39,650 nt of DNA, taken from Aquificaceae bacterium. GTDB lineage: Bacteria > Aquificota > Aquificia > Aquificales > Aquificaceae. The stretch spans positions 1-39,650 of the forward strand of contig JANWWY010000012.1 of assembly GCA_025057455.1 (NCBI GenBank). The letters are read 5' to 3'. Shown in pieces: positions 25,664 to 29,075 of this stretch (position 1 is its first letter; every line of letters begins with the position of its first letter). Below the pieces are notes generated by a model that saw only the letters and a program-made list of their open reading frames with translations, made no database searches and was not told the origin of the DNA. A program made the translations under genes and the position numbers.

Positions 25664-26434
25664 CTATGCCTGTGCTTTTTGCTCTGTGGGTACCCTATAC
25701 ATGTCCTGCGTGAGAAGGTCTACGCCCACCTCTAAATTTTCCACCCATTCAATAAAGCGGTTTACCATGTCCTTTCCCTTGAAGATGGCACCATGCTGCG
25801 GTACTATCATTTCAATGTCTAACTGCCTTACCATGTTTGCCCAGAAACGAAGCACCTTGTTGCTTACCATATACCTTCTGTGGAATCCTTCCATGTATCT
25901 TATGTGTTTGTCAAAGTCCTCAACCACAAAGTAGTCTTGACCAAGGGAAGCACCAAGGTCACCCGAAAACAGAATTTTGGAACACGGGTCATAAACCTGG
26001 AAGTTGCCCTCAGAATGTAAAAAGTGTGCAGGTAATATATACAACTCACAATCACCCCCAAGTTTTAGCACGGTCCCGCGGTCATCTATGGGAAAAACCC
26101 TGTCCTCCAATTGAGAATCCAGTCCAAAGTGTGGTAGAAAACGCATCCAGAGCTTTGATATATAGGCAACAGCTTTTGTGGTCATGAGCCAGCCGTTTAT
26201 GGAAGCTACTATGTCTGGGTCTTGGTGGGACAAGAATATGTATTTTATCTGGTTGGGTGGTATGTATATGGATAGGTCGGAGAGAAGCTTGACTTTGTGA
26301 CCTCCTGGGTCCAAAAGCATGCCTTCACCTTTGTGTATTATAAGCACTTGGTTTGCCTGAACCGCACTAGCTGGAGTGAGTTCCTCGAAGAATACCACCT
26401 TGTGGTCTGGCGTGTTAAAAATTAAATTTTTCAT
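25664..26434 (-). CDS. MBL-fold oxygen-binding diiron protein (ODP-like)
   Basis: A 256-aa metallo-beta-lactamase-fold protein resembling the diiron domain of flavodiiron proteins but without the flavodoxin domain. The metal motif is SHQDPDIV (His70, Asp72, Asp74) instead of the hydrolase HxHxDH. ILPAHFLHSEGNFQVYD, FSGDLGASL and VPQHGAIF supply the other ligands. HQDPD is characteristic of the oxygen-binding diiron proteins described from spirochaetes and related sequences, some linked to chemotaxis or redox sensing. It is probably involved in O2 sensing or reduction in a microaerophile. A GGAGGTG Shine-Dalgarno fits the start, and an FNR-type palindrome lies in the promoter. Confidence 0.88.
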   Translation of the reverse strand: MKNLIFNTPDHKVVFFEELTPASAVQANQVLIIHKGEGMLLDPGGHKVKLLSDLSIYIPPNQIKYIFLSHQDPDIVASINGWLMTTKAVAYISKLWMRFLPHFGLDSQLEDRVFPIDDRGTVLKLGGDCELYILPAHFLHSEGNFQVYDPCSKILFSGDLGASLGQDYFVVEDFDKHIRYMEGFHRRYMVSNKVLRFWANMVRQLDIEMIVPQHGAIFKGKDMVNRFIEWVENLEVGVDLLTQDMYRVPTEQKAQA

Positions 26435-26448
26435 ACAGCACCTCCAGT

Positions 26449-26476
26449 ATGATATGTATCATGTTTAAGTATAATA
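26449..26476 (-). promoter_or_regulatory. FNR/CRP-type operator and -10 of the diiron-protein gene
   Basis: ATGATATGTATCAT (26449-26462) has perfect 6-bp arms around a 2-nt centre. Its core TGAT-N4-ATCA matches the FNR/CRP-family consensus (TTGAT-N4-ATCAA) except for the outermost bases. On the minus strand TATTATACT (26476-26468) supplies overlapping -10 candidates, so the palindrome would cover the transcription start, a repressor position. It lies between the -10 and the Shine-Dalgarno. Confidence 0.55.
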
Positions 26477-26520
26477 CAAAAATTCGCATTCTGGGTAAGA
26501 AATCAACCTTTTAAAGGCTA

Positions 26521-27185
26521 CTAATCAAACAAATCCCTAAGCTGTTCTTTGGAAAGCCTTTCAAGATATTCGTTTAGATAAAAGTAGTCTGGTTCTCCTT
26601 TGATTGCCCTCATTTTTAAAGTAAAGCTTGGGTTATCCACATCCACAACTAAGCCTATACCAAATCTGTAACATAATGACTGAATAGCTTATAGGCACAT
26701 GCCTGACCGAAAGCTGTTATAAGCTGGGAAGTGTCTGTTTTAATTTCTGCGGATATTATTTCAGGCAGTGGCTGTAGGCGGGCTATAGTAGACAGCCTGT
26801 ATATGCCAATAACGTCAGGTGTACCCCACTTGTCCCTAAACTGGTTATTGCCTAAGACCAAGGTTCTTGTGCACTCTTGGAGCTCCTCCTTCAAGTATTC
26901 TGCAAAGGGCTCGTAGAAATTGTGTTCTTTAACCTTTTTTCAGCGTCAGGAGCTTGCGTTTGATAGTATTTTTCAGGATATAGAAACCCCTATCCGGGTT
27001 AAGAACTTTTGAGTTTTCACTCATTACAGAGCGCAGTGAATGGTATTTTTGTTAATGCCTGGTAGTTTCTCGCTCAAGACCCTCACCAAATCGCTGTAGT
27101 GAACTCCTTCTTTTTTCTCCTCAAGGGTTTCCCATATCTTTTCGTGAATCTGTTCTTTTTTACTTTCCTGCCTCACCCTACCCAT
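26521..27185 (-). pseudogene. Decayed winged-helix + PD-(D/E)XK nuclease gene
   Basis: Read from an ATG at 27185, the minus strand encodes 53 codons of a helix-turn-helix-like domain (WETLEEKKEGVHYSDLVRVL) before a TAA at 27026. The reading then continues in other frames: SENSKVLNPDRGFYIL, next PEKYYQTQAPDAEK, next (after a shift at the T6/A6 tract 26935-26940) VKEHNFYEPFAEYLKEEL, running into GTPDVIGIYR and AEIKTD, a PD-(D/E)XK nuclease core, and AFGQACAYKLFSH. A further frame change near 26660 leads to FGIGLVVDVDNPSFTLK and a stop at 26521. At least four lesions, the last probably with loss of some residues, show a dead gene. The family resembles predicted restriction-type nucleases of unknown function. 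Confidence 0.75.
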
Positions 27186-27186
27186 A

Positions 27187-27198
27187 ATACAATTGTAT
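27187..27198. promoter_or_regulatory. Perfect 12-bp palindrome at the pseudogene start
   Basis: ATACAATTGTAT is a perfect inverted repeat 1 bp upstream of the pseudogene ATG. On the minus strand TATTAT, a possible -10, overlaps its edge. It could be a relic operator, perhaps for autoregulation by the helix-turn-helix domain. Confidence 0.4.
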
Positions 27199-27410
27199 GC
27201 AAACCAAACCTGTGAGTTGTTTGAGCTTTGAATGTAAATCCTTTTGTATTACCTTTCCCAAGTGTGTTATGGGCCCAAGTTTTCTATGAGTATTGGTGAG
27301 ATATGGGGGTATAAAGGGGGTGGTCATTCACTGCTTGAGGGTTTTGCTCTAAATAATAAAACCTGCATTTGGTGGGTGCAAGTTAGCCCTTGCTAAGACT
27401 TTAGTTGACG
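27199..27410. other. Intergenic stretch without recognisable gene
   Basis: About 210 bp between the decayed nuclease gene and moeB. I see no ORF with coding character, no tRNA or riboswitch I can name, and only short, weak hairpins (e.g. GGGCCC near 27266). It is the loosest spacing among the protein genes in the window and probably further debris of the decayed locus. Confidence 0.4.
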
Positions 27411-28729: not shown

Positions 28730-29075
28730 TGGTGGAGGCGGCGGGAATCGAACCCGCGTCCGAGAACCTTCGGAACCCAGAGCCTCTACAGGCTTAGCCA
28801 GTGTTTTGTTTCTGACCCTAGGGCGTCCACTGGCAAACTCCCTTAGGGTGAGCAGGACCCTGTTTTCGGTTATGGGCACGTCCCGCACTACCCATAACCT
28901 ACTCCCCTGTCTCTGAGCCCTTCCCACAACCCAGGGGTCAAGCCATGGGAGAGCCGCTGCTTTTAGTTAAGCAGCGAGAGCGAGTTCCCTTTCGGGAAGT
29001 GTTTGTTTTGGCTCTTAAGGTTGCCACCCTGCCTGCAACCCTGTCCTACAGTTCCCGTCGAACCCATTCGCCCCC
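28730..29075 (-). ncRNA. ssrA: Transfer-messenger RNA (tmRNA)
   Basis: Rescues stalled ribosomes. The minus strand begins GGGGGCGAATGGGTTCGACG at 29075 and ends CGGGTTCGATTCCCGCCGCC followed by TCCACCA at 28730, so the acceptor stem pairs GGGGGCG with CGCCTCC and the CCA is encoded. The tag reading frame ends with codons for ELALAA and a TAA at 28969-28967; the visible upstream codons read PKQTLPER. The Aquifex tag also ends in ELALAA. The exact resume codon is uncertain. The length of 346 nt is normal. One-piece, non-permuted form. Confidence 0.96.

Follow-up and report, generated by a model that had tools for sequence, protein, structure and literature searches.

The palindrome ATGATATGTATCAT at positions 26449-26462 of the window, by which we mean the whole stretch of 39,650 bases that was analysed, is probably the operator of a 239-aa CRP/FNR-family protein that we call RegA (G000:C44:38197-38913). 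A dimer of RegA would repress the gene of an oxygen-binding diiron protein (ODP), and the same protein would govern respiratory genes, peroxide-handling genes and some genes of CO2 fixation. We infer the binding, the repression and the promoter elements from the sequence. The palindrome has 6-base arms and a 2-base centre, and it carries the TGA(N6)TCA core of FNR/CRP-family operators in the form TGAT-N4-ATCA, just as the original prediction had it. On the minus strand it reads ATGATACATATCAT, and the order upstream of the ODP start codon is TATACT-TAAAC-ATGATACATATCAT-ACT-GGAGGTG-CTGT-ATG; the span 26435-26476 contains the operator, the ribosome-binding site GGAGGTG (26439-26445, minus strand) and a putative -10 element. 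This -10 (TATACT, 26473-26468, minus strand) was read manually, with the aid of an alignment with seven congeneric promoters, and the promoter scanner returned no full sigma-70 match and no clear -35 at the ODP promoter. Counting 7 bases on from the -10 would put the transcription start at 26461 on the minus strand, within the operator, which would then, if that -10 is right, cover about -1 to +13, its centre being placed by hand at about +6.5. This layout agrees with the earlier claim that the site comes just after the -10 and lies over the transcription start.

A single palindrome of this kind could be a chance occurrence, or the hairpin of a leader RNA, and the window by itself leaves room for that: TGATN4ATCA occurs once where 0.28 is expected, and at least one such site was found in 26 of 100 shuffles. 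Statistics from the window only are too weak for a decision, and genome-wide and orthologue tests were therefore used. In its own genome the motif occurs 15 times against 3 for the reversed-pattern control, and in eight congeneric genomes RTGATN4ATCAY is found 68 times against 10. According to the ORF caller, 48 of the 68 congener sites are intergenic and 20 lie within open reading frames; for the 15 sites of the own genome the split is 8 and 7. The genome-wide search that had been proposed bears out the enrichment of the site. A 22-column matrix built from 50 other sites ranks the operator first in the window, with a score of 18.6 and a runner-up at 13.6. Its training sites were hand-picked and mostly intergenic (L110 was kept though flagged as lying in an ORF, and the intergenic L097, L098 and L108 were omitted), and ODP promoters were excluded from them. 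The enrichment and the recurrence in orthologous promoters speak against chance or a hairpin, and so do orthologues such as ATGACCTTTATCAT, which retain TGA..TCA rather than full base pairing, a pattern that suits protein binding. We consider that explanation extremely improbable, and judging from the sequence the palindrome is a genuine, non-chance FNR/CRP-family site.

Thirty ODP loci were fetched, and after L021 had been dropped for having 23 bases upstream, 29 were scored. The site is present in 13 of the 29 promoters at a score of at least 8.5, and in 17 at a score of at least 5. Of 1084 background windows, which are mostly coding and come from the loci of RegA in 30 family genomes, 2 reached either threshold, as did 1 of 125 AT-rich windows; binomial figures for the ODP promoters are overstated, because the promoters are related by descent. 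At the higher threshold the site is found in 7 of 10 promoters of the own genus, 4 of 7 in g3, 1 of 4 in g4 and 1 of 2 in g11, and in none of those in g8 (0/4), g2 (0/1) and g9 (0/1). At the lower one the counts are 8 of 10 for the own genus, 2 of 4 for g4 and 1 of 4 for g8, the single g2 promoter being a weak match. The expected conservation in orthologous promoters holds, though not throughout: 12 of the 29 score below 5, among them three of the four in g8 and the only one in g9, genera in which RegA is present, and g2, like these two, has a weak site or none.

Within the own genus the centre of the site lies 21-22 bases before the ATG in 8 of the 10 ODP promoters (score at least 5). An alignment that took in 8 of the 10 shows the site directly following a TATATT/TATACT-like -10, with diverging sequence farther upstream; in the g11 case the order is reversed, with the site ahead of the -10. 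Since the site usually follows the -10 of the ODP gene, repression by blocking the transcription start is likely: a RegA dimer would bind the ODP promoter at about -1 to +13 and keep RNA polymerase from it. The repression of the diiron protein that had been proposed is, from the position of the operator over the putative start, probable.

That the gene encodes an ODP (25664-26434, minus strand, 256 aa), as first suggested, is well borne out. The product matches PF19583 at 2.8e-74, the two nearest solved structures (6qrq and 6qnm) both carry the name oxygen-binding diiron protein, and the motifs HQDPD, PAHFLHS, FSGD and PQHGA align with those of 6qrq. Pfam finds no flavodoxin domain in it, and the ODP-type metallo-beta-lactamase domain stands alone, with the metal motifs of 6qrq. 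It belongs to the same family as the ODP of Treponema denticola (6qrq, 3.3e-70), which acts in chemotaxis (PMC7666581). Unlike that chemotaxis protein, the ODP gene here has as neighbours a DnaE-like gene, recognised by eye, and a ThiF gene. The roughly 900 bases between ODP and ThiF (26500-27400) contain small ORFs only, the sole one tested (26655-26894) gave no Pfam match, and the stretch may be a decayed gene. ARAGORN places a tmRNA gene at 28730-29075 on the minus strand, and the short ORFs over it are probably spurious. An ODP match is present in 55 of 64 family genomes; in the relative G043 (C33:20254-20685) it is split into three parts, one of which has an internal stop, and the gene may be broken there.

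The search for FNR/CRP-family regulators that had been called for yielded two CRP/FNR proteins with a Crp-type HTH in the own genome, and a third cyclic-nucleotide-binding domain in a 621-codon frame that has no Crp-type HTH match. Of 64 family genomes, 60 have a match to RegA, 59 of them at no less than 50% identity (the best match in G011 has 28%), and so do all 42 genomes with at least 90% completeness and at most 5% contamination. In its recognition helix TVETTIRVMSKW, E occupies CRP position 181 and R position 185, while position 180 is not R, in a numbering that for both CRP/FNR proteins comes from our own alignment to CRP, and the helix reads TVET(T/A)IR at 40 of 40 loci. According to PMC1274295, residue 180 of CRP/FNR proteins correlates with base 3 of the half-site and residue 181 with base 6. 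By this code V180 and E181 of RegA would fit the non-G base 3 and the A6 that are observed (A6 has a frequency of 0.98 in the site matrix), and the genome thus holds a CRP/FNR regulator with matching recognition residues. The other protein, of 207 aa (C64), also has an HTH_Crp_2 domain and could in principle bind the operator, but its recognition helix SVRVVVSR, with R180, V181 and no glutamate at 181, misfits the site by the same code. In addition, four genomes that are at least 97% complete (G038, G051, G056 and G057) have a single HTH_Crp_2 match each, at the place of RegA, and together 24 sites against 3 for the control. Compared with the residues by themselves, these genomes would be the stronger link between the motif and RegA, with the reservation that a divergent second protein may fall below the threshold, and binding by the 207-aa protein is very improbable.

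RegA shares its family and the TGAT-N4-ATCA core with FNR of Escherichia coli (TTGATN4ATCAA), which has the same VET..R recognition helix and activates or represses according to position. Unlike FNR, it lacks the set of Fe-S cysteines, and its site has A (0.91 in the matrix), not T, before TGAT. From the start codon shared by the RegA genes onward there is one cysteine, C140, at 40 of 40 loci, that of the own genome included. Ten of the 40 frames have additional Cys codons upstream of the shared start, which look like untranslated overlap with the preceding gene, and the frame of the own genome has no room for them. RegA is accordingly not a classical oxygen-sensing FNR, because it has one cysteine where the [4Fe-4S] protein requires four; the sequences exclude a four-cysteine cluster for the own genome and make it unlikely elsewhere. 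An FNR-like box is also common to RegA and the FNR relatives without Fe-S of the DNR/FixK type, but the box of RegA lacks the outer T..A of TTGATN4ATCAA. FixK is its best NCBIfam match (1.6e-19), and the name was rejected, since 70 bits do not reach the curated cut-off of 300; the structure of DNR (3dkw) is matched at 2.9e-11.

The nearest solved structures to the predicted RegA model are those of GlxR and mycobacterial CRP (3r6s, 1.8e-17), which are cAMP-bound, whereas RegA seems to lack the residues E72 and R82 of CRP. Where CRP has GELG, RegA has FGWIEWG in a manual comparison. The prediction has a mean pLDDT of 79, and the fold search confirms the CRP/FNR fold only and indicates no effector. 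Oxygen or redox state is a likely signal for RegA, a reading to which we give about even weight; NO, thiol redox and a metabolite are also possible signals.

The conserved groups of other targets were drawn from 83 sites across nine congeneric genomes, of which the own genome contributes 15 and the others 68. The site is found in six promoters of coxIII, in five each of peroxiredoxins and of the delta subunit of a 2-oxoacid:ferredoxin oxidoreductase (PF02552), and in four each of an isocitrate-dehydrogenase-family gene (icd, PF00180) and of a cytochrome c with a divergent DUF2249 gene. Two promoters each of DUF4198, rhodanese and porin-like genes have it (Porin_O_P 25.4 bits, cut-off 20.9), with one more DUF4198 promoter alike in G025, and in the own genome a di-heme cytochrome c peroxidase gene (ccp, PF03150) has it as well. 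For the peroxiredoxin, DUF2249, DUF4198, rhodanese and porin groups, the name is based on Pfam tests of one or two copies each. Delta subunits of this oxidoreductase kind occur in the five-subunit enzymes of Aquificaceae, according to PMC10052474.

Several target groups have a conserved geometry relative to the inferred start, as measured by the geometry script. Sites are centred at -42.5 in all five peroxiredoxin promoters, at -43.5 and -42.5 in the porin-like ones, at -43.5 in all three of DUF4198, at -60.5 twice and -72.5 twice for cytochrome c, at +8.5 in both rhodanese promoters and at +9.5 for ccp. CRP/FNR proteins activate from near -41.5, -61.5 and -71.5, and repress from over the -10 or the start. 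RegA would thus act as an activator at like sites that directly precede the -35 or lie farther from the start, and repress where it covers the -10 or the start of other promoters. The oxidoreductase sites (-52.5 four times, -53.5 once) and those of icd (-32.5 four times) match no standard activation position neatly. For the six coxIII promoters the script gave inconsistent choices of -10, as its rule requires a T that is missing from TATATC; by eye they read TTGACA-17-TATATC, with the -10 inside the site. With the same promoter caller, 3.4% of 1000 random stretches fell within -41.5 to -43.5 and another 5.6% within the two class I ranges; the score of 11.2 seen in four of the five peroxiredoxin promoters was attained by 1.1% of 1000 random stretches; the copies within a target group are related and not independent. 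Over the -35 of the peroxiredoxin promoters (L055, L096, L103, L112 and L118) lies a further inverted repeat of the type TTGCAAA...TTTGCAT, possibly the site of another regulator.

The targets bear on what RegA senses. It could be a DNR-type regulator that responds to NO, in which case operator and repression would be the same and the signal would be NO instead of oxygen. The core TGATN4ATCA matches the DNR/FNR box, and DUF2249 (COG4309) is tied to NO reductase, both according to PMC1274295; a DUF2249 gene adjoins the site in four genomes (one of the four copies was Pfam-tested), a DUF542/ScdA_N protein adjoins it in G025, and the ODP fold is shared with flavodiiron NO/O2 reductases. However, among the conserved targets the genes for oxidase, oxidoreductase and peroxiredoxin make up the largest groups. 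The site next to the DUF2249 gene suits the promoter of the divergently transcribed cytochrome c gene as well, and the DUF542 site falls inside an upstream reading frame. We see NO as a possible but rather unlikely signal, and prefer RegA as a probable repressor of ODP with oxygen or redox as a likely signal. If it is active at low oxygen, repression of ODP, coxIII and cytochrome c peroxidase would make sense, while activation of the peroxiredoxins fits less simply.

The enrichment of the motif is broad, but not universal. Counts in other genera, which cover 18 genomes, are for motif and control 60/5 in g4, 27/3 in g8, 22/3 in g3, 9/0 in g9, 4/1 in g11 and 3/2 in g10, and of these genomes only G025 had its sites, 23 in number, read in context. 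There is no enrichment in g2 (1/3) and g5 (18/18), although the g2 rows that were aligned share the RegA recognition helix. Repeats inflate the genome counts: in G025, seven of the 23 sites were assigned by eye to two repeat families, four to one and three to the other. These repeated intergenic elements (L183, L186, L189 and L192; L181, L199 and L200) contain the palindrome, as though the operator had been taken up or handed on by a mobile or structural repeat. Some recurring sites have no visible promoter role. In several genomes ATGATTTATATCAT or a close variant is found at the 3' end of a gene that by eye is YifB/ComM-like (L106, L115, L120, L150, L098), close to GTGTGAAATTC repeats and with no promoter in sight, and in G037 (L108) an apparent CRISPR-like array with the repeat GTTTCAACTCCACACGGTGGATTAGCAAC, recognised by eye, contains a match to the pattern.

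Members of Aquificaceae are thermophilic hydrogen oxidisers whose CO2 fixation depends on oxygen-sensitive enzymes even though they consume oxygen. A more speculative idea, which we hold to be doubtful, is that RegA is a family-wide, cluster-free FNR-like regulator which joins CO2 fixation by the reverse TCA cycle with respiration and the defence against peroxide in one regulon, and which senses either redox, through the one invariant cysteine, or a metabolite, for instance 2-oxoglutarate; such a mode of sensing would be new for this box. Among the matches listed in our literature search, which mostly did not extend to subscription literature, no publication dealt with this regulon. To the original prediction we add a probable regulator, its putative regulon at the level of the genus, and the conclusion that RegA is not a classical FNR. 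The genes worth measuring are coxIII, cytochrome c peroxidase, the peroxiredoxins, ODP, the delta subunit of the 2-oxoacid:ferredoxin oxidoreductase and the isocitrate-dehydrogenase-family gene, which together would give a CRP/FNR protein of Aquificaceae a testable regulon.
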